Positions 1,895 through 23,849 of a DNA stretch of 64,000 nt are shown piece by piece. Made by a program: the position numbers and the translations under genes. Numbering within the stretch: the first letter of the stretch is position 1; every line of letters starts with the position of its first letter. The stretch spans positions 1 to 64,000 of the forward strand of contig NZ_FOCW01000008.1 in assembly GCF_900110225.1 (NCBI RefSeq), read 5' to 3'. The stretch comes from Allobrachymonas denitrificans DSM 15123 (GTDB lineage: Bacteria; Pseudomonadota; Gammaproteobacteria; Burkholderiales; Burkholderiaceae_C). The notes below the pieces were generated by a model. It worked only from the letters and a program-made list of their open reading frames with translations, was not told the DNA's origin and ran no database searches.

Positions 1895-2781
1895 CGGGGC
1901 AGTCCTTCTTTCAGCAGGCGCAGCAGGTATTGGCCGTAGCCATTCTTGCGCATCGGCTCTGCCAATTCCTGCAATTGGGCCGCATCGATATAGCCGTTGC
2001 GCCAGGCGATTTCTTCCGGGCAGGCGATTTTCAGGCCCTGGCGCTGCTCCAGCGTGGCAATGAACTGGCCGGCATCGAGCAGGCTTTCATGGGTGCCGGT
2101 ATCGAGCCAGGCATAGCCGCGCGTCATGATTTCCACATGCAGGCGGCCCTGCTCCAGGTAGGCCTGGTTGACGCTGGTGATTTCCAGCTCGCCACGGGCG
2201 CTGGGCCGGACCTGGCTGGCAATGTCCACCACCTGGTTGTCGTAAAAGTACAGGCCGGTGACAGCGTAGCTGGACTTGGGCTGCTGCGGCTTTTCCTCGA
2301 TGCTGATGGCCTTGCCGGCGGCATCGAACTCCACCACGCCGTAGCGCTCCGGATCCTGCACATGGTAGGCAAAGACCGAGGCATCATCGGTACGTGCATG
2401 GGCCTGCTGCAGCAGGGTCACCAAATCATGGCCGTAGTAGATGTTGTCTCCCAGCACCAGCGCCGAAGGGTGGTTGCCGATGAAATCCTTGCCGATCAGA
2501 AAGGCCTGCGCCAGACCATCCGGGCTGGGCTGCACGGCGTACTGCAGGTTCAGGCCCCACTGGCCACCATCGCCCAGCAGCTGCTGGAAGCGCGGCGTGT
2601 CCTGTGGCGTGGAAATGACCAGAATGTCGCGGATACCCGCCAGCATCAGCGTGGTGAGCGGGTAGTAGATCATGGGCTTGTCGTACACCGGCAGCAGCTG
2701 CTTGCTGATGGCCAGTGTGGCCGGGTGCAGGCGGGTGCCGGAGCCGCCCGCCAGGATGATGCCCTTGCGTGAAGTCGTCAT
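1891..2781 (-). CDS. rfbA: Glucose-1-phosphate thymidylyltransferase
   Basis: Makes dTDP-glucose from dTTP and glucose-1-phosphate, the committed and usually feedback-inhibited first step to dTDP-L-rhamnose. At 296 residues it matches the family length. The nucleotide-binding signature [20 protein letters not shown] is at the N-terminus, with DKPMIYYPL and LGDNIYYG following, and [19 protein letters not shown] in the sugar-binding part. The ATG at 2781 lies about 40 bases past the rfbD stop, and the gene overlaps rfbC by four bases. No defects were seen. Confidence 0.97.
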
Positions 2782-2820
2782 AGAATTTCGCTTGATGTAT
2801 TGAGGGGGATGGCCGGCTTT

Positions 2821-3747
2821 TCAGCCCAGCACTTCATCCAGCATGCGGTCCACGCCCTGCTGCCAGTCCGGCAGCGCCAGACCAAACGCCTGCTGCAGTT
2901 TGTGCGTGTCCAGCCGCGAATTAAGCGGCCGTGTCGCTGCCACGGGGTAAGCGCTGGAGGGAATGGCGGTGACGGCTTCCGGAGCCACCTTAAGCGGCAG
3001 ACCCTTGCGCCGTGCCACATCCAGCACATGGCTGGCATAGCCATGCCAGCTGGTGCTGCCGCCAGCGGCCAAATGGTAGAGGCCGGTACAGCCGGTATCG
3101 CCACGCAGGTACTGCCGCACGGCATGGGCGGTGACATCGGCGATCAGCTCGGCACCGGTGGGGGCGCCCCACTGGTCACTGATCACGCTGAGGCTATCGC
3201 GCTCCTGCGCCAGGCGCAGCATGGTGCGGGCAAAGTTGCCGCCGCGTGCGGCATAGACCCAGCTGGTGCGGAAAATCAGGTGCCTTGCCGCGTGCTGGCG
3301 GATCAGGGTTTCTCCTGCCAACTTGGTCTGGCCGTAGACATTGAGCGGTGCGGTGGCATCGGTTTCCTGCCAGGGCTGCTGGCCGGAGCCGTCAAACACG
3401 TAATCGGTGGAGTAATGCACCAGCAGTGCGCCCAGACGGTCTGCCTCTTGGGCCAGCACGCCCATGGTGGTGGCATTGATGCGCTGCGCCAGCTCTGGCT
3501 CGCTTTCGGCCTTGTCTACTGCGGTGTAGGCAGCAGCATTGACGATGACGTTTGGCTGCAGCAGGCGCACGGTGGCGGCCAGGGCTTCGGGATCGGCCAG
3601 ATCGCCGTGCAACGGCTGACCTTGCCAGACCGGGTTGGCAGCGGTATCACGCCCCAGCGCCCACAGCGTACCCAGCGGGGCCAGGCTGCGCTGCAGCTCC
3701 CAGCCGACCTGGCCCTGCTTGCCCAACAGCAGGATGGTGGTGCCCAT
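2821..3747 (-). CDS. rfbD: dTDP-4-dehydrorhamnose reductase
   Basis: Short-chain dehydrogenase that reduces dTDP-4-keto-L-rhamnose to dTDP-L-rhamnose with NAD(P)H. Its 308 residues include the N-terminal dinucleotide motif GKQGQVGWEL, the segment NAAAYTAVDKAE, YSTDYVFDG, and the catalytic YGQTK with Tyr and Lys in place. The ATG at 3747 is three bases downstream of the rfbB stop, so co-translation is likely. It is a normal-looking member of the rhamnose operon. Confidence 0.97.
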   Translation of the reverse strand: MGTTILLLGKQGQVGWELQRSLAPLGTLWALGRDTAANPVWQGQPLHGDLADPEALAATVRLLQPNVIVNAAAYTAVDKAESEPELAQRINATTMGVLAQEADRLGALLVHYSTDYVFDGSGQQPWQETDATAPLNVYGQTKLAGETLIRQHAARHLIFRTSWVYAARGGNFARTMLRLAQERDSLSVISDQWGAPTGAELIADVTAHAVRQYLRGDTGCTGLYHLAAGGSTSWHGYASHVLDVARRKGLPLKVAPEAVTAIPSSAYPVAATRPLNSRLDTHKLQQAFGLALPDWQQGVDRMLDEVLG

Positions 3748-13772: not shown

Positions 13773-14768
<996 letters not shown>

Positions 14769-16067
14769 TTACAGGCGGAACACGGTAAAGCCCGCATCTT
14801 CCAGCGCATAGCGGTCAAACAGGCTCTTGATATCGCCCACCACCGGCTTGTGCTGCGTATTGCAGTAGCCAACCAGCTGCTGGGGCGTCAGTTCACGGTA
14901 CTGAGTGTGGCCCACTGCCACGACCAGACTGTCCACCTTGTTGTCGGCACCCAGTTGCCCAAGCTCAAGCCCGTATTCACGGCGCACTTCATCAGCATCA
15001 GCCCAGGCATCCGTGACCACCACATTCACATTCCAGCTCTGCAGCTCCCGGATCAGGTCAATCACCTTGCTGTTGCGGATATCAGGGCAGTTCTCCTTGA
15101 ACGTGATACCCATCACACCCACCGTACTGCGCGCCACATCCACACCGTTCTGGATCATGCGCTTGATGATGCTGCGTGCCGCATAGATAGCCATGTTGTC
15201 ATTGATGCGACGCCCCGCCAGAATCACTTGCGGGTGGTAGCCCACCTCTTCGGCCTTGTGCGTCAGGTAGTACGGGTCCACACCAATGCAGTGCCCTCCC
15301 ACCATGCCGGGCCGGAACGGCAAAAAGTTCCACTTGCTGCCTGCAGCCTCCAGCACCTCCAGCGTGTCAATGCCTACCCGTTCAAAAATGAGCGACAACT
15401 CGTTGACAAAGGCAATGTTCAAGTCACGCTGGCTGTTCTCGATCACCTTGGCAGCTTCTGCCACCTTCAGGCTGCTGGCCTTCCAGGTACCCGCCATAAT
15501 GATGCTGCGGTACAGCGCATCCACCTCCTCGGCAACTTCAGGCGTACTGCCACTGGTGATCTTCTTGATCTTGGTCAGCGTGTTGACCTTGTCGCCGGGG
15601 TTGATGCGCTCAGGGCTGTAGCCGCAGAAGAAGTCCTGGTTGAACTTGAGTCCGCTGGCCTTCTCCAGCTCCGGCACACAGACTTCTTCCGTGGCCCCAG
15701 GAAAGACAGTGGACTCGTAGATGACGATATCGCCCTTGCGCAGAGTGCGGCCCACCGTCTGACTGGCCTTGACCAGAGGCGTCATGTCCGGACGATTCAC
15801 CTCGTCTACCGGGGTGGGCACCGTCACGATATAAATCTGGCACTCCCGCAGATCTTCCGGGTCACAGCTGTAACGCAGATGCTCTGCGGCCTTCAGCCCT
15901 TCGGGCGACACCTCCAGAGTGCTGTCCTTGCCAGCACGCAGCTCATCCACACGCTCCTGCTTGATGTCAAAGCCCAGTACATCACGCGTCTTGCCAAACT
16001 CTGCTGCCAACGGCAGACCTACATAGCCCAGGCCGATCACAGCCAGTTTTTTTTGTTCGTTGCTCAT
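14769..16067 (-). CDS. wbpA: UDP-GlcNAc 6-dehydrogenase
   Basis: UDP-sugar 6-dehydrogenase of 432 residues (WbpA/TviB family), oxidising UDP-GlcNAc to UDP-GlcNAcA with NAD. It has the N-terminal KLAVIGLGYVGLPLAAEFGK Rossmann motif, VPTPVDEVNRPDM, ESTVFPGATEEVC, and the active-site Cys in GGHCIGVDPYYLTHKA. The C-terminal UDP-binding domain ends VGDIKSLFDRYALEDAGFTVFRL. This is the only complete wbpA in the window, so both downstream wbpB/E/D sets would depend on it. A remnant of a second copy is at 18240-18404. It is the first gene of the long minus-strand operon. Confidence 0.96.
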   Translation of the reverse strand: MSNEQKKLAVIGLGYVGLPLAAEFGKTRDVLGFDIKQERVDELRAGKDSTLEVSPEGLKAAEHLRYSCDPEDLRECQIYIVTVPTPVDEVNRPDMTPLVKASQTVGRTLRKGDIVIYESTVFPGATEEVCVPELEKASGLKFNQDFFCGYSPERINPGDKVNTLTKIKKITSGSTPEVAEEVDALYRSIIMAGTWKASSLKVAEAAKVIENSQRDLNIAFVNELSLIFERVGIDTLEVLEAAGSKWNFLPFRPGMVGGHCIGVDPYYLTHKAEEVGYHPQVILAGRRINDNMAIYAARSIIKRMIQNGVDVARSTVGVMGITFKENCPDIRNSKVIDLIRELQSWNVNVVVTDAWADADEVRREYGLELGQLGADNKVDSLVVAVGHTQYRELTPQQLVGYCNTQHKPVVGDIKSLFDRYALEDAGFTVFRL

Positions 16068-16496
16068 TCTTTACTCAACAAATTTTCAATGGTTGACAGG
16101 GCTTGTCACCCAAGACAACGCCACTCAAGGTAAAAAGTCATTAAAAACAATACCCTAGGGATCCCCACCCCTTCAGACACGCCATGATTCCTCTTTCCGT
16201 CCCAGGTCGTCTCATGGCTCAAGCTATCATTATGACGCGATCCCCAGCCTGCAAATGCTACGCCGGGTACGCTTGTGGGTATGCCATGTTGTTGCACTTA
16301 CGTGTACTTTTGATGAATTCTGCACGTTCGTTGCGCAATCCGTGCCCGGGCCTCACCATTCGGAAGGACAATCCATACCGTAGCTTGAGCGCCACATGCG
16401 ACCAAGTCTGGCGAATGTGTCATTGTGCCTTCAGGACTCCTCAACATGCCCATGACGCCTCGCCTCCAACTTGACTAACACACCAACCGACTGTTT
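16068..16496. other. Divergent intergenic region of the two wbp operons
   Basis: A 429-base gap between wbpA (minus) and wbpE (plus). It has no coding frame that resembles a protein. It should hold the promoters of both divergent polysaccharide operons, but I could not pick out a convincing -35/-10 pair. A TTGACT at 16471 would place its -10 on the wbpE start codon. I saw no terminator, JUMPstart or remnant gene here. Confidence 0.5.
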
Positions 16497-17594
16497 ATGG
16501 ACTTCATCGACCTCAAGACCCAATACGCCGCCCTGCGCGACCCGATCCAGCAGCGCATGCAACGCGTACTCGACCACGGCCAGTACATCATGGGCCCCGA
16601 AGTGGCCGAACTGGAAACCGCGCTGGCTGCACGCACCGGCACCGCCCACTGCATCACCGTTTCCAGCGGCACCGAAGCCCTGCTGATCAGCCTGATGGCG
16701 CTGGGCATCCAGCCGGGTGACGAAGTCATCACCACACCCTTCACCTTTGCCGCCACCGCCGAGGTCATCGCCCTGCTGGGCGCGGTGCCGGTCTGGGTGG
16801 ATGTGGAAGAGGATACCGGCCTGATCGATGCCAACCTGATCGAGGCCGCCATCACACCGAAGACCAAGGCCATCATGCCGGTCAGCCTGTATGGCCAGGT
16901 GCCGGACATGGATGCCATCAACGCCATTGCAGCAGCGCACGGGAATCTGCCCGTGATCGAGGATGCGGCGCAGAGCTTTGGCGCCCGCTACCATGACCGC
17001 GAAAGCTGCAACCTGAGCACCTTCGGCTGCACCAGCTTTTTCCCGAGCAAGCCGCTGGGCTGCTATGGCGATGGCGGTGCCATCTTTACGCACGACGACG
17101 CGTTGGCACAGGCCTGCCGCGAGATCCGCATCCACGGCCAGAGCAAGCGCTACACCCACACCCGCATCGGCGTGGGTGGCCGCATGGACACGCTGCAGTG
17201 TGCCATCGTGCTAGCCAAGCTGGAGCGTTTTGCATGGGAAGTGCAGCAGCGCATGCAGCTGGGCCAGGCCTACAACGCCTTGTGCGATGCCGCCGGCATC
17301 CCACGCATGCAGCAGCGCGAGGGTCGCACCAGTGTGTTTGCGCAGTACACCGTGCGTGTGTCGCAGCGCGAGCAGTTGCAGGAGCAGCTCAAGGCAGCGG
17401 GCATTCCCACTGCCGTGCACTATCCGATTCCGATGAATCAGCAGCCGGCCTACCAGGGCCTGTGTGACCGCCCGACGCCCGTGGCAGATCGCCTGGCGAC
17501 CGAGGTGATGAGTTTGCCGATGAGTGCCGACCTGACGCAAGCGCAGCAACAGCAGGTCATGCAAGCACTGACATCCGTTTTGTCCAACACCTGA
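16497..17594 (+). CDS. wbpE: UDP-3-keto-GlcNAcA 3-aminotransferase, first copy
   Basis: PLP-dependent DegT/DnrJ/EryC1 aminotransferase of 365 residues (WbpE/WlbC). It converts the 3-keto sugar made by WbpB to UDP-GlcNAc3NA. The N-terminal MDFIDLKTQYAALRD is the family start, SSGTEALLISLMAL follows, and the PLP lysine is in FFPSKPLGCYGDGGA. The C-terminal IPTAVHYPIPMNQQPAYQGL is the sugar-binding part. The partner copy wbpE2 (22755-23849) differs at scattered positions. wbpD follows after 18 bases. Confidence 0.95.
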   Translation: MDFIDLKTQYAALRDPIQQRMQRVLDHGQYIMGPEVAELETALAARTGTAHCITVSSGTEALLISLMALGIQPGDEVITTPFTFAATAEVIALLGAVPVWVDVEEDTGLIDANLIEAAITPKTKAIMPVSLYGQVPDMDAINAIAAAHGNLPVIEDAAQSFGARYHDRESCNLSTFGCTSFFPSKPLGCYGDGGAIFTHDDALAQACREIRIHGQSKRYTHTRIGVGGRMDTLQCAIVLAKLERFAWEVQQRMQLGQAYNALCDAAGIPRMQQREGRTSVFAQYTVRVSQREQLQEQLKAAGIPTAVHYPIPMNQQPAYQGLCDRPTPVADRLATEVMSLPMSADLTQAQQQQVMQALTSVLSNT

Positions 17595-17612
17595 TCACAT
17601 ACATAGTTCAAC

Positions 17613-18218
17613 ATGAACATTTCAACCTCTGATCCTGCATACACGGCCCACCCCACCGCCATCATCGACCCCGGCGCGCAAATCGGCGCCGGCAGCCGTG
17701 TGTGGCACTGGGTCCACATCTGCGCCGGTGCCGTGATTGGCGAGCGCTGCTCCTTCGGCCAGAACGTGTTCGTGGGCAACGATGTGCGCATCGGCAACAA
17801 CGTCAAGGTGCAGAACAACGTCAGCGTGTACGACGCCGTCACGCTCGAAGACGACGTCTTCTGCGGACCGAGCATGGTGTTCACCAACGTCTACAACCCG
17901 CGCTCTGCCGTGGCGCGCAAGGAAGAATACCGCCGCACGCTGGTGAAACAGGGCGCCACCATGGGCGCCAATGCCACCATCGTCTGCGGCAGCACCGTGG
18001 GGCGCTACGCCTTTGTCGGCGCCGGAGCGGTGGTGCAGAAGGACGTACCCGACTTTGCCCTGGTGGTAGGTGTGCCGGCGCGGCAGATCGGCTGGATGAG
18101 CCGCTTTGGCGAGCGGCTGGAGCTGCCGCTGCAGGGTTCAGGCGAGGCTGTGTGTCCGCATACGGGGGATCGTTATGTGCTGCAGGATGGAAAATTGCAA
18201 CATCTCATAGCCAACTAA
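17613..18218 (+). CDS. wbpD: UDP-GlcNAc3NA N-acetyltransferase, first copy
   Basis: Left-handed beta-helix acyltransferase of 201 residues (WbpD/WlbB), which acetylates the 3-amino group to give UDP-GlcNAc3NAcA. Hexapeptide repeats run through [20 protein letters not shown] onward, with [20 protein letters not shown] and the [11 protein letters not shown] segment. From about codon 15 the DNA is almost identical to wbpD2 (21301-21906), and identity ends abruptly after GTGCTGCAGGATGGA (18178-18192), where the two C-termini differ. This suggests recent duplication or gene conversion. A wbpA remnant follows 21 bases later. Confidence 0.94.
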
Positions 18219-18239
18219 GCAAGTAGGCTGAGCCTTCCC

Positions 18240-18404
18240 GTGGACGTACTGGTGGTGGCCGTGGGCCACGGCAGCTACCGCGCCATGACACCTGCCGACC
18301 TGCGCCCGCTGTGCCGTGGCGAGCAGCCGATTCTGGCGGATGTGAAGAGCTTGTATGACCGGCATGCGGCGGGGGCGCAGGGGTTTGCCGTGTTTCGGCT
18401 GTAA
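18240..18404 (+). pseudogene. wbpA: Remnant of a second wbpA (C-terminal 54 codons)
   Basis: An open frame without its own normal start reads VDVLVVAVGHGSYRAMTPAD at its beginning and ends DVKSLYDRHAAGAQGFAVFRL minus the first residue, then TAA. This lines up with the end of the intact wbpA protein (VDSLVVAVGHTQYRELTPQQ and DIKSLFDRYALEDAGFTVFRL region), including the FRL stop. Homology begins sharply at 18240, just after wbpD, so the first ~375 codons are gone. It marks where a second wbpA-wbpB-wbpD-wbpE cassette once began. The abiE module starts 18 bases beyond, in the opposite direction. Confidence 0.9.
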
Positions 18405-18422
18405 CGCTGCCCTGAACCTGCC

Positions 18423-19286
18423 TCAGGCAGGTTTGTCCCAGGGCAAGCTTTCGTAAAACTCACGCACCAATCCATAAGCCACATCAAACGGCGGCAAGTG
18501 ATCTGCCACCAATTGCGGCAAAGCGCTGCCATACTGCGCCTGTGACAGCGCCACAATGCGCGGGTCCTGCAAGGCGAGGCGATCCGGCTCCTCCAACCTG
18601 TCCCTGCAGGCACTGCGCAACTTGCCCAGAATGGCCGCACGATCTTCAAACGTCATGGACTCGACACTGTTGAGCAACAGGTTCAGATCATAAATATCCT
18701 GGTAGCGCTCCCGCTTGCGCACCACCTGCTGCAACACCGAGCGGTACTTCTCTGCCACCAGGTCATGAAACGGGTACATGCGCAGTGCGCCTCCATCCAC
18801 CGGCTGCTCCTCGATCGCCGTCACCCACTCGTTGAAGCTGTAATCCACCGACACCAGCGTAGGCACTCCCTGCGCCATCAGGCGGCGCATGGCAGCCGGC
18901 TGCTGACGTGACGCATAGCCAACCCGCAACTGCAAGGTCGGAAAGCTGATATCCGGCCGTGGAGGTGGCTTGATCACATGCGACTGCAGCCGCAAGGCCA
19001 GACCGTACTCATTGTCTGCAGACACCGGAGCCAACGCACTCTCGACGGCCTGCAACAAGCGCGGCACCTCCTGCAACTGAAAGCGTCGTGAAGTGGAAAA
19101 ATCGATATCACGCGTATAACGGGTGCTGCGATATCGTATCGCCAGCAGGATCCCGCCCTTCATGATCATGGTGGGGGCCAACACCTCTGACTGCGCAATG
19201 GCTCGCAACACCAGATGCACCGCCTGCCGAAACACCTGCCGGCCTGGGTCCTGCTCTGCTTCTACCCACAATGGCAAATGGATCAC
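18423..19286 (-). CDS. abiEii: AbiEii nucleotidyltransferase toxin
   Basis: Toxin of a type IV-class AbiE toxin-antitoxin / abortive infection system, a member of the nucleotidyltransferase superfamily (DUF1814/MenA-like). With the GTG start at 19286 the protein has 287 residues. The nucleotidyltransferase core reads KGGILLAIRYRSTRYTRDID (about residues 43-62), giving the GG and Asp-x-Asp signature, and FHDLVAEKYRSVLQQ plus RERYQDIYDL follow. A longer frame to 19325 exists, but the GTG overlaps the antitoxin stop (GTGA) and gives the usual coupled arrangement. In the studied AbiE systems overexpression is bacteriostatic and phage infection can be aborted; that role here is inferred. Confidence 0.92.
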   Translation of the reverse strand: MIHLPLWVEAEQDPGRQVFRQAVHLVLRAIAQSEVLAPTMIMKGGILLAIRYRSTRYTRDIDFSTSRRFQLQEVPRLLQAVESALAPVSADNEYGLALRLQSHVIKPPPRPDISFPTLQLRVGYASRQQPAAMRRLMAQGVPTLVSVDYSFNEWVTAIEEQPVDGGALRMYPFHDLVAEKYRSVLQQVVRKRERYQDIYDLNLLLNSVESMTFEDRAAILGKLRSACRDRLEEPDRLALQDPRIVALSQAQYGSALPQLVADHLPPFDVAYGLVREFYESLPWDKPA

Positions 19287-20176
19287 ACACCCTCCGGCAA
19301 AGGCAGGTTGATGGACAGCGCCCAACGCTCGGAAAACTCGGGAGCATAGTCAGCCGAGGCATCGAGCTTGCGTGAGCCACCGCGCCGGACAGTGGCTGCC
19401 CACCCGTCCAGCCGGGTATCCGACAGCCCGCACACATCCTCGAGCAGAAAACCGACACGCGCACGCTCCACCGCCGTGCCGTGCTGCTCCAGCTCATCCA
19501 GAATCAGCCGCAGGAACCCGGACGCATGCTGCTGGTAGCAAACCATGACATGCGCCATGCCGCCACACAACTCCGGCGCACGTACCATATCCAGAAATGT
19601 GCGCCCCAGCGTGGCCACCCGGACCGGTGAATCCTTGATCAAGCGGAAAGCACCCAGATGCGTGCTGCTGTAGCGGTGCACCGGCTTGCGATGGAGCCGC
19701 AGGATCTCCAGACGCCGCAACAGGGGCAGGCCAGCCGCCTGGAATGCCTCCCAATCCGCCCCCAATGACTTGCGCATGCGATCCTGCGCCAGTGCTGCCC
19801 ATGCCTGGCGAGCCGGCGATGACACGTAAAGCACCTCGGGGAAGCGATCTGTCAGGCCATGAAACTCCATGGCGCTCAGATGCGACAGGAAACAAAACGG
19901 ATCCAGCGTGCACACCAGGGCGTTGCGATCATCGGTTATACGCCCGATCAGGGCTGCCACCGACCGGGGCGAAAAACCGGCGACCGGCTGCAGGGTGCCG
20001 ACCTCTTGCAGCATGCGCACCACACGGGCAAAAGCCGCCTTGTTCAAGGCCTGGCCGCCCTGTTCTTGGCGCTGGCATAGCTGCCACGCCAGGCGAGCAA
20101 TGTCATGCATCAAAATGACAGGGGCCTTGAGTTTGCTCAACTCCAGCGCAAGCGCGTGCGCGACAGTCATGGACAT
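19283..20176 (-). CDS. abiEi: AbiEi antitoxin and autorepressor
   Basis: A 297-residue AbiEi-family protein: an N-terminal winged-helix region (about residues 15-90, ILMHDIARLAWQLCQRQEQG onward) followed by the C-terminal antitoxin domain with HLSAMEFHGLTDRFPEVLYV and KDSPVRVATLGRTFLDMVRA. AbiEi proteins neutralise AbiEii and repress their own operon by binding inverted repeats. A 49-base near-perfect palindrome lies 18 bases upstream of this ATG. The gene ends four bases inside abiEii. It is inserted within the second wbp cassette, antisense to it. Confidence 0.92.
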   Translation of the reverse strand: MSMTVAHALALELSKLKAPVILMHDIARLAWQLCQRQEQGGQALNKAAFARVVRMLQEVGTLQPVAGFSPRSVAALIGRITDDRNALVCTLDPFCFLSHLSAMEFHGLTDRFPEVLYVSSPARQAWAALAQDRMRKSLGADWEAFQAAGLPLLRRLEILRLHRKPVHRYSSTHLGAFRLIKDSPVRVATLGRTFLDMVRAPELCGGMAHVMVCYQQHASGFLRLILDELEQHGTAVERARVGFLLEDVCGLSDTRLDGWAATVRRGGSRKLDASADYAPEFSERWALSINLPLPEGV

Positions 20177-20194
20177 GGTGCTGCAATACTCCTC

Positions 20195-20243
20195 ATAGCT
20201 GACTATAATTAATGTCCTAAGGACATTAATTATAGTCAGCTAT
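20195..20243. promoter_or_regulatory. 49-bp palindrome, probable AbiEi operator
   Basis: Two 24-base arms match perfectly around a single central base at 20219. The left arm begins ATAGCTGACTATAATTAATG and ends TCCT; the right arm is its exact complement. TATAAT occurs in each arm, once per strand (20204-20209 plus, 20229-20234 minus), so a bound repressor would cover a -10 box in both directions. The location between the start of abiEi and wbpB2 fits negative autoregulation and possibly control of the plus-strand sugar genes. No T-run follows, so it is not a terminator. Confidence 0.85.
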
Positions 20244-20257
20244 CCATGAAAAGCCAA
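20229..20257 (-). promoter_or_regulatory. Predicted abiEi-abiEii promoter
   Basis: On the minus strand TTGGCT (20257-20252) and TATAAT (20234-20229) are spaced by 17 bases. The -10 box lies inside the palindromic operator. Transcription would start near 20222, about 45 bases before the abiEi start codon. Confidence 0.6.
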
Positions 20258-20314
20258 TCCATGCTTCCCGGTAGCACCCGCAGCATGCCCGGGCACCCAG
20301 AAAGCGCACAATAG

Positions 20315-21906
<1,592 letters not shown>

Positions 21907-21910
21907 GGCC

Positions 21911-21916
21911 TACAAT
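21911..21916 (+). promoter_or_regulatory. Possible -10 box (TACAAT) of the zeta module
   Basis: TACAAT lies 28 bases upstream of the small antitoxin gene, just after the wbpD2 stop. No good -35 box is visible 17 bases further up. It could let the toxin-antitoxin pair, and wbpE2 behind it, be transcribed independently of wbpB2-wbpD2. Confidence 0.3.
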
Positions 21917-21944
21917 CATTGCGCAATTGCAGACTTTACGAAAC

Positions 21945-22145
21945 ATGAAATCCCAGCGCACTTCCCCCCAACATCTGGCTTTGCAGGCTGTTGCACGTGC
22001 CCTGCAAACGGCACAGCGGTCGGAAGCCTACTTCGCCGAGTACCGCAAACATCACTCGGTGGTAGAGCCCGACGCCGAAGGGCGGATTGTGCGCCGCTTC
22101 CCTGACGGCCAGAAAGTTATCCTGCGCAATATGTGTGCACAATGA
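21945..22145 (+). CDS. Small protein upstream of zeta toxin, antitoxin candidate
   Basis: A 66-residue basic, helical protein (MKSQRTSPQHLALQAVARAL at its start, and FPDGQKVILRNMCAQ at its end). An in-frame longer version begins inside wbpD2 but lacks any reason to be used; ATG 21945 follows a clear gap after the wbpD2 stop. The stop overlaps the zeta toxin start (ATGA), the usual coupling of an antitoxin and toxin. It is not related to the classical Gram-positive epsilon antitoxin by eye. Function is inferred from position. Confidence 0.75.
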   Translation: MKSQRTSPQHLALQAVARALQTAQRSEAYFAEYRKHHSVVEPDAEGRIVRRFPDGQKVILRNMCAQ

Positions 22146-22741
22146 GTGCGCCTCCCGTCGCCGTGTTCTACGCTGGCGCCAATGGTGCGGGAAAGTCGAC
22201 CATGCGCGAGCAGCAGCAGGACACCTATCCCGGCATGTTGCATCTGGATCCGGATGCAATCGCCCGCGAGATCCGGCCGCAAGATCCCCGCTCCGTTGAT
22301 GTCCTGGCCGCTAAAGAGACGATACGACGCTTCAGGGCTGCCCTTGTCCAATGCAAGAATTTCTCTCTGGAAACCACTCTGTCAGGCGTCACCATCCTGC
22401 ACAGAATCAGGGAGACTCGCGAGGCAGGCTACTGGATAGAACTCCACTATGTCGGACTCCCTGATCCTGAATGCAATGTGGAACGCGTCAGGGAGCGCGC
22501 AGAGCGCGGCTTGCACTCCATTGATCCCGACGTAGTGCGCAGACGCTACAAGGACAGCCTGGAAAATCTGCCAAAGGCACTCCCCCTGGTTGATATCGCA
22601 TTCCTTTATGACAACTGGGCAAGGCCGCTACACCCCTATGTCGTGTATGCGGGGGGAGCATTTTCAACTCTTGATGCACCACTACCCAAGTGGATCCAGA
22701 CATCCATGGAAATGGATGCGAGCCGATCAGCTTCCGCCTGA
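22142..22741 (+). CDS. Zeta-type toxin (UDP-GlcNAc kinase family)
   Basis: P-loop kinase of 199 residues. Walker A is GANGAGKST (about residues 13-21), followed by HLDPDAIAREIRPQDPRSVD with the catalytic/substrate Asp region, and FSLETTLSGVTILHRIRETR, the stretch that resembles zeta and PezT cores. Characterised zeta toxins phosphorylate UDP-GlcNAc at the 3'-hydroxyl and block cell-wall synthesis; small Gram-negative members are less studied. The start at 22142 overlaps the upstream small gene. wbpE2 begins 13 bases after the stop, so toxin and sugar gene are probably on one transcript. Whether it acts on UDP-GlcNAc here is an inference. Confidence 0.88.
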   Translation: MSAPPVAVFYAGANGAGKSTMREQQQDTYPGMLHLDPDAIAREIRPQDPRSVDVLAAKETIRRFRAALVQCKNFSLETTLSGVTILHRIRETREAGYWIELHYVGLPDPECNVERVRERAERGLHSIDPDVVRRRYKDSLENLPKALPLVDIAFLYDNWARPLHPYVVYAGGAFSTLDAPLPKWIQTSMEMDASRSASA

Positions 22742-22754
22742 ACCAGACACGATC

Positions 22755-23849
22755 ATGGACTTCATCGACCTCAAGACGCAATACGCCGCGCTGAAAGACC
22801 GCATTGCCGAGCGCATGCAGCACGTGCTGGATCACGGCCAGTACATCATGGGCCCGGAAGTGGCAGAACTGGAAGCCGCGCTGGCAGACCGCACGGGCGC
22901 CAGGCACTGCATCACCGTATCCAGCGGCACTGAGGCGCTGTTGATCAGTCTGATGGCGCTGAACCTGCAGCCGGGCGACGAAGTGATCACCTCGCCCTTC
23001 ACCTTCGCCGCAACCGCCGAAGTGATCGTGCTGCTGGGTGGCAAGCCGGTGTGGGTGGATGTGGAAGCAGACACCGGCCTGATCGACGCCACGCAGATCG
23101 AGGCAGCCATCACGCCGCGCACGCGCGCCATCATGCCGGTGAGCCTGTATGGCCAGACGCCCGATATGGACGCCATCAACGCGATTGCGGCACGCCACGG
23201 CAATCTGCCGGTGATCGAGGATGCGGCGCAGAGCTTTGGGGCCACCTATCGAGACCGACAGAGCTGCAATCTGAGCACCTTCGGCTGTACCAGTTTCTTC
23301 CCGAGCAAGCCGCTGGGCTGCTATGGGGATGGCGGTGCCATTTTCACCAGCGACGACGCACTGGCGCAGGCCTGCCGCGAGATCCGCCTCCATGGCCAGA
23401 GCAAGCGCTACACGCACACGCGCGTCGGCGTGGGCGGACGCATGGACACGCTGCAATGCGCCATCGTGCTGGCCAAGCTGGAGCGCTTTGACTGGGAAGT
23501 GCAGGAGCGCCTGGTGCGCGGGCAGCTCTACAACGCCGCCTGTGATGCAGCGGGCATTGCGCGCATCCACCAGCGCGCCGAACGCACCAGCGTGTTCGGG
23601 CAGTACACCGTGCGCGTAGCGCAGCGCGAGCAGGTGCAGGAGCGCCTGAAAGCCGCAGGCATTCCCACGGCCGTGCATTACCCGGTGCCGATGCACCGTC
23701 AGCCCGCCTATGCCGGCCTGTGTGATCGTCCCACGCCGGTGGCGGATCGCCTCGCCGGCGAGGTGATGAGCCTGCCCATGAGTGCCGACCTGACGCTCGC
23801 GCAGCAGGATGCCGTGATGCAGGCGCTGCGCGATGCGGTTGCCGCGTGA
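22755..23849 (+). CDS. wbpE: UDP-3-keto-GlcNAcA 3-aminotransferase, second copy
   Basis: DegT-family PLP aminotransferase of 364 residues, paralogue of 16497-17594. The ATG at 22755 gives the family start MDFIDLKTQYAALKDRIAER; the frame before it belongs to the end of the zeta gene region. The PLP lysine is in FFPSKPLGCYGDGGA and the C-terminus has IPTAVHYPVPMHRQPAYAGL. It is less similar to its paralogue than the wbpD pair is, so the two cassettes did not diverge evenly. wzx2 starts 7 bases after the stop. Confidence 0.95.
   Translation: MDFIDLKTQYAALKDRIAERMQHVLDHGQYIMGPEVAELEAALADRTGARHCITVSSGTEALLISLMALNLQPGDEVITSPFTFAATAEVIVLLGGKPVWVDVEADTGLIDATQIEAAITPRTRAIMPVSLYGQTPDMDAINAIAARHGNLPVIEDAAQSFGATYRDRQSCNLSTFGCTSFFPSKPLGCYGDGGAIFTSDDALAQACREIRLHGQSKRYTHTRVGVGGRMDTLQCAIVLAKLERFDWEVQERLVRGQLYNAACDAAGIARIHQRAERTSVFGQYTVRVAQREQVQERLKAAGIPTAVHYPVPMHRQPAYAGLCDRPTPVADRLAGEVMSLPMSADLTLAQQDAVMQALRDAVAA

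Follow-up and report, generated by a model that had tools for sequence, protein, structure and literature searches.

A perfect 49-bp palindrome at the abiE promoter of Allobrachymonas denitrificans DSM 15123, a probable AbiEi operator of a type that keeps core, symmetry and length rather than arm sequence

The window analysed here, the whole 64,000-nucleotide stretch at positions 1 to 64,000 of contig NZ_FOCW01000008.1 of Allobrachymonas denitrificans DSM 15123, carries an AbiE type IV toxin-antitoxin pair on its minus strand. The abiEi gene (19283-20176) encodes a 297-aa antitoxin and presumed repressor, which is recognised by PADLOC (E 1.2e-92) and scores 21.0 bits against Pfam AbiEi_1, slightly under the cut-off of 22.2. 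Adjoining and overlapping it is abiEii (18423-19286), encoding the nucleotidyltransferase-type toxin (Pfam AbiEii E 7.9e-25, 88.6 bits versus a cut-off of 22.5; PADLOC E 3.8e-91). The start codon of abiEii is probably the GTG at 19286, overlapping the abiEi stop, rather than the one at 19325. PADLOC, a predicted structural model (pLDDT 90, pTM 0.86) and Foldseek place a winged-helix domain at the N-terminus of AbiEi and an AbiEi domain at its C-terminus. The best PDB matches of the model were 6y8q (E 3.5e-5) and 1zel (E 4.2e-5), the S. agalactiae AbiEi and Rv2827c, with TM scores of 0.45-0.49 to the query; a search of the PDB with the AbiEi sequence profile gave no matches at E up to 1. Together with the strands of the neighbouring genes, the PADLOC and Pfam assignments bear out an earlier annotation made from the letters of this DNA alone (the sequence-only reading), which had placed an AbiE pair antisense to wbp genes.

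The pair interrupts a surface-sugar locus. Its left edge is a 169-bp 3' remnant of a wbpA-like dehydrogenase gene (18236-18404, plus strand), 99.4% identical to an intact gene in a genome of the same genus (G002), and to its right lies the oxidoreductase gene wbpB2 (20351-21304, plus strand; Pfam GFO_IDH_MocA). The wbp names are presumptive; the Pfam families found here are oxidoreductase, hexapeptide and aminotransferase. Native DNA upstream of wbpB is recognisable from 20300 in a match to genome G003 and from 20341 in a match to G002, which puts the palindrome described below on the AbiE side of the boundary. In three other genomes of the genus the gap between the wbpA-like and wbpB-like genes has different contents: in G002 an Abi_2 gene that has decayed (Pfam 20.8 bits, below the 25.6 cut-off), in G006 an intact Abi_2 gene (1.1e-55) and in G003 about 4.4 kb of other genes. 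We take the genes in the G003 gap to be argB- and rml-like. The gap resembles a hot spot at which abortive-infection genes insert into a surface-sugar locus. Its contents occupy 18236-20350 in the window, about 2752-3335 in locus L074, 291-1250 in L076 and about 7050-11510 in L075. The sugar locus of the window comprises two diverged sets of wbpB/wbpD/wbpE-like genes (13773-18218 and 20351-23849). Inside the second of these cassettes is a Zeta_toxin-like kinase gene (22133-22741, Pfam 3.5e-9) preceded by a short ORF, a possible second toxin-antitoxin pair of the sugar locus.

Immediately upstream of abiEi is a perfect palindrome of 49 bp (20195-20243; no strand), with two arms of 24 nt (20195-20218 and 20220-20243) that are 100% complementary around a single central nucleotide. 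The sequence-only reading had described these 24-base arms and had judged the site longer than an ordinary operator, and the arm length supports it on both counts. At the centre lies the conserved core GTCCTAAGGAC (20214-20224; no strand), and the core GTCCTNAGGAC has a single exact occurrence in the whole 2.71-Mb genome. As single-stranded DNA the palindrome folds at -21.9 kcal/mol (z of about -12; 0/200 shuffles equally good), and the window holds no other palindrome with a symmetry score of 13 or more. An intrinsic terminator, with a G+C-rich stem followed by a T run, was rejected, as the palindrome is not among the three terminator-like sites of the scan.

The palindrome overlaps the predicted abiE promoter. 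On the minus strand, a -35-like box TTGGCT (20252-20257) precedes a -10 box TATAAT (20229-20234) that lies inside the palindrome, and this TTGGCT-17-TATAAT match, facing abiE, is the only promoter-like match in a scan of 18000-20700 (one found, 0.7 expected from shuffles). The mirror-image TATAAT (20204-20209, plus strand), which completes the pair of boxes claimed earlier, has a weak -35 element, CTGCAA (3/6). Because the site nearest abiEi holds the -10 box, the abiE transcript is predicted to start at the palindrome centre and would therefore carry one arm only.

Similar sites were found upstream of abiEi throughout a clade of related AbiE loci. All 50 clade loci examined, a set that includes the window and several near-duplicates or close relatives, have one to three palindromes immediately upstream of abiEi. 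The 88 sites in these loci share a 1-nt centre and the core [AG]TCCTNAGGA[CT], with one core mismatch in one site, the otherwise perfect distal site of L082. Forty-four loci passed the clade filter (1e-12), which 13 distant AbiEi loci (L015-L027) failed, and 42 remained once L039 and L041 were dropped as duplicates of L012 and L029; two palindromes are present in 30/42, one in 11/42 and three in 1/42. Eight of the 50 loci came from two later searches made once the pattern was known, and all eight have palindromes (14 sites, with perfect runs of 19-25 in 13/14). Detection required a symmetry score of 13 and made no use of the core. The first scans admitted only 1-nt-centre palindromes; when spacers of 0-12 were later allowed from -300 to +30 in all 50 loci, the best palindrome was of the 1-nt-centre core type in 50/50 and no other scored 13 or more. 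Most loci thus have a second, distal palindrome farther upstream of abiEi. L046 has three in a row, centred at -244, -138 and -54 from abiEi, with arms that all differ.

The aligned representatives of the clade have AbiEi proteins 30-51% identical to that of the window. Their hosts are Acidovorax, Diaphorobacter, Nitrosococcus, Thiodictyon, Xanthomonas, Serratia, Klebsiella, Citrobacter, Salmonella, Acinetobacter, Pseudomonas, Rhodovulum, Cereibacter, Phaeobacter, Azospirillum and one Verrucomicrobiaceae MAG. The clade is sparse. With the source genome counted each time, it was detected in 8/399 genomes of the family, in 9/379 of the order and, at 1e-30, in 4/398 of the phylum; it was absent from the other 8 genomes of the genus. 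The AbiEi protein had no match in phage records, and 81 pattern matches in viral contigs included no relatives.

Two controls were made. None of the 13 distant AbiEi loci has the core, although 7/13 have some inverted repeat scoring at least 12 somewhere. A scan of 217 kb, made up of the window and the locus DNA, gave 44 palindromes scoring at least 13, of which 35 have the core; the nine without it lie in plasmid stretches (eight where AbiE is also present, one beside) and include terminator-like and repeat-like ones. A recombination site or mobile-element end was considered and rejected, as no further odd palindrome of score 13 occurs in the DNA available from -1000 to +3200.

What the sites have in common was determined on 41 sites, thinned from 71 unique ones. 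Counting outward from the centre, positions 1-4 are invariant, position 5 is C in 38 sites, positions 7-13, in the region of the -10 box, lean toward A+T, and positions 14-19 carry about 0 bits. Pairing between the arms is nevertheless 100% to position 14, 98% at 15-18, 95% at 19 and 93% at 20, then declines to 73, 59, 49 and 37% at 21-24 and to 29% at 26, and is near chance by 24-26; pairing at positions 1-13 is partly by construction, given the score of 13 required for detection. Unpaired cells in the unique sites number 0/936 at positions 1-13 and 4/360 at 14-18, all four in the short distal site of L045. The perfect run is 18-26 in 40/41 thinned sites, mostly 20-23, and 14 in the remaining one. 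Conservation thus lies in the centre, the symmetry and the length and not in the arm sequence, which is the new feature of these sites.

Comparison of two sites at one locus, made on 25 representative loci, tells against a protein that reads the full sequence of the arms. The arms of a single site match each other in 93-100% of cases over positions 13-20, whereas two sites of one locus agree in only 20-50% per position and sites of different loci in 24-31%; full sequence reading was therefore rejected. Same-locus sites are slightly more alike than chance at positions 14-20 (45 versus 33.4 matches, p=0.016, 18 loci), which suggests slight sequence reading of the outer arm by the cognate protein. 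Two pairs of loci have AbiEi proteins 95% identical, L006/L057 with 4 differences in the first 95 residues and L034/L053 with 5, and their distal arms differ at 5 and 4 paired positions, respectively.

The arms change in pairs. In seven sets of close relatives, in which L029 is used twice, 28/169 arm pair positions (6-18) vary, all of them on both sides and none on one side only. In the flanks of the same sets, 178/836 columns vary, a count that is confined to locally conserved stretches, which lowers the apparent variability of the flanks. The centre base differs within 10/12 sets, mainly A versus T (overall T 32, A 28, C 7, G 4). Transitions are depleted in the arms (6/27, versus 87/174 in the flanks; p=0.0055, in a test chosen after seeing the data), and the excess of complement swaps in arms over flanks (11/27 versus 52/174) is not significant (p=0.18). 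Replication template switching is described as homogenising arms, inverting spacers and, in bacteria, favouring transversions, although yeast data from the same source have more transitions (PMC8604942), and it is also described as producing compensatory pairs (PMC8794818). The pattern of change points to template switching that copies one arm onto the other, and the set length argues for selection as well. The centre exchanges could also reflect a bias toward A or T at that position. Quasipalindrome template-switch hotspots are alike in arm homogenisation, paired changes and spacer inversion, but are presented as mutational traces (PMC8604942, PMC8794818), whereas the set length and invariant core of the present sites argue for function too.

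With ten close relatives left out, a promoter scoring at least 9/12 points toward abiEi at 23/32 proximal sites and away from it at 4/32, compared with 24/860 displaced windows. At distal sites such promoters point toward abiEi in 2/22 and away in 10/22. Examples of distal palindromes with a promoter-like sequence pointing away are those centred at -122 from abiEi in L031 and at -156 in L034. A search for a conserved divergent ORF behind the palindromes found none among 67 candidates; only near-duplicate loci matched each other.

We conclude that a palindrome which is present at every examined locus of the clade, which overlaps the promoter and which combines an invariant core and a set length with paired change and symmetry free of sequence conservation is probably the autoregulatory operator-promoter of the AbiE module, its symmetry kept by selection together with template switching (a reading to which we assign a probability of roughly 0.65). 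With the abiE -10 box within one arm and transcription predicted to start near the centre, a winged-helix AbiEi would bind the conserved core and two half-sites of 20-24 bp and so shut off abiEi-abiEii. The symmetry would probably be maintained in two ways: by selection on the DNA for about 20 bp of self-complementary arms, and by template switching during replication, which would copy arm onto arm and can invert the centre base. We infer both the role of AbiEi as the binding protein and the requirement for symmetry. The operator reading is supported by known AbiEi proteins, which are reported to repress their own promoters via inverted repeats (PMC3985639, PMC7319586); against it, the rule of core plus arms differs from the S. 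agalactiae repeats.

The AbiE system of S. agalactiae is described as having 23-N3-23 inverted repeats with 4 mismatches, autorepression by AbiEi and binding of linear DNA (PMC3985639). It resembles the present locus in its bicistronic AbiEi-AbiEii arrangement and its arms of about 23 bp overlapping the promoter, with autorepression demonstrated there and proposed here (PMC3985639). The window palindrome departs from that canonical form of mismatched 23-bp arms and a 3-nt spacer, and the part stated to be perfect in S. agalactiae is the outer 11 bp (PMC3985639), whereas the loci of the clade often have two palindromes, built around a single central nucleotide and an unvarying core, with perfect arms whose sequence is almost free. 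S. suis is likewise reported to have an AbiEi operator-promoter with inverted repeats (PMC11062541). Rv2827c-Rv2826c of M. tuberculosis is similar in its AbiEi-like protein and its two tandem pairs of 23-bp inverted repeats near the promoter, but each pair is described as split by a 13-bp gap and the repeats as sharing a sequence consensus (PMC7319586). In a partial survey of the open-access literature for long or perfect AbiE palindromes or cruciform toxin-antitoxin operators, S. agalactiae, S. suis and M. tuberculosis were the only species for which inverted repeats were described, and the string GTCCTAAGGAC occurred in 3 papers with unrelated titles.

The symmetry itself may be read as a hairpin or cruciform, may merely help two AbiEi molecules to sit alike, or may be partly a mutational by-product. 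According to the first of these alternatives, which we regard as doubtful, the folded DNA is the functional form, with the core as a protein-recognised apex on a stem that need only pair over some 20 bp. Extrusion under negative supercoiling would then remove the -10 box from the duplex and make abiE sensitive to supercoiling, single-strand entry and phage nucleases. A recognised hairpin would be expected to show just such a conserved apex on a stem fixed in length but free in sequence, and the 4-5 paired differences between the distal arms next to 95% identical AbiEi proteins fit the same idea, as does the absence of G-T oppositions within 17 positions, which indicates pairing as DNA and not RNA. 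Set against this, S. agalactiae AbiEi is reported to bind linear promoter fragments (PMC3985639), a centre containing G+C should slow extrusion, and template switching is able to keep symmetry without any reading of structure. Folded DNA is recognised at integron attC sites and phage N4 hairpin promoters, where the fold matters more than the stem sequence; the pairing of the clade palindromes is perfect, and their recognition in folded form is hypothetical. It is only tentatively that we entertain clade operators recognised through self-complementarity, with a fixed 11-bp apex and a stem of about 20 bp of nearly any sequence. If that were true, a hairpin or cruciform, formed by supercoiling or on a single strand during plasmid transfer or phage attack, would be the signal that sets abiE expression.

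It is comparably unlikely that AbiEi reads only the 11-bp core and that the arms, lengthened and homogenised by template switching that starts from this core, are under no selection. Such a process would account for arms that vary nearly as often as their flanks, for the paired changes and for the fewer transitions, and template switching is reported to homogenise arms and invert spacers (PMC8604942). Undirected copying should, however, give a broad range of lengths with many short arms, not the narrow range of perfect runs observed.

It is most improbable that the palindrome acts as a promoter in both directions and gives AbiEi control of wbpB2 as well, as the sequence-only reading had proposed. 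The TATAAT on both strands and a wbpB2 start 107 bp downstream of the palindrome are in favour of this, but the plus-strand -35 element is weak and was not found by the scan, and the palindrome is AbiE-borne. The two -10 boxes lie apart and point inward, so that the predicted starts face each other, whereas the usual, symmetric bidirectional promoter is described as having overlapping -10 elements and divergent starts 18 bp apart (PMC10268837). Among 23 annotated plasmid stretches, chosen for spread from about 145-153 records, none has a wbp gene as neighbour. Of the regulatory proposal, then, an AbiEi site at the abiE promoter is likely, whereas control of wbpB2 from the same site, and with it the suggested coupling of surface-sugar expression to AbiEi, is unsupported, given that the sole promoter match faces abiE and that the 23 annotated relatives lack wbp neighbours. 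A weak plus-strand transcript may arise from the palindrome. There is very little chance that outside transcripts fold the palindrome into an RNA hairpin hiding the abiEi start: a read-through transcript would contain the perfect stem of about 20 bp, adjoining the start codon in several loci, but the 41 sites have 0 G-T oppositions within 17 positions, on which ground an RNA stem was rejected, the abiE mRNA with its predicted start at the centre would hold one arm only, and distal sites are far from the start codon.

Sequence conservation is the norm for repressor sites; in this clade it is symmetry and length that persist, while most of the sequence varies. The pattern occurs in several classes of Proteobacteria and in one genome of the Verrucomicrobiaceae, and belongs to a phage-defence family that is often on plasmids. 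Nature has replicated it, so that it can serve to ask whether cells read the self-complementarity of DNA, and to measure template switching in evolution. The core with its symmetric arms is also a sequence tag by which members of this AbiE clade could be found and their promoters predicted. On small enterobacterial plasmids, a PP2C-type phosphatase-like gene comes after the AbiE pair or accompanies it; this gene was identified by Pfam in L055 (1931-2584) and L054 (642-1310) and by annotation in L056 (1927-2580).
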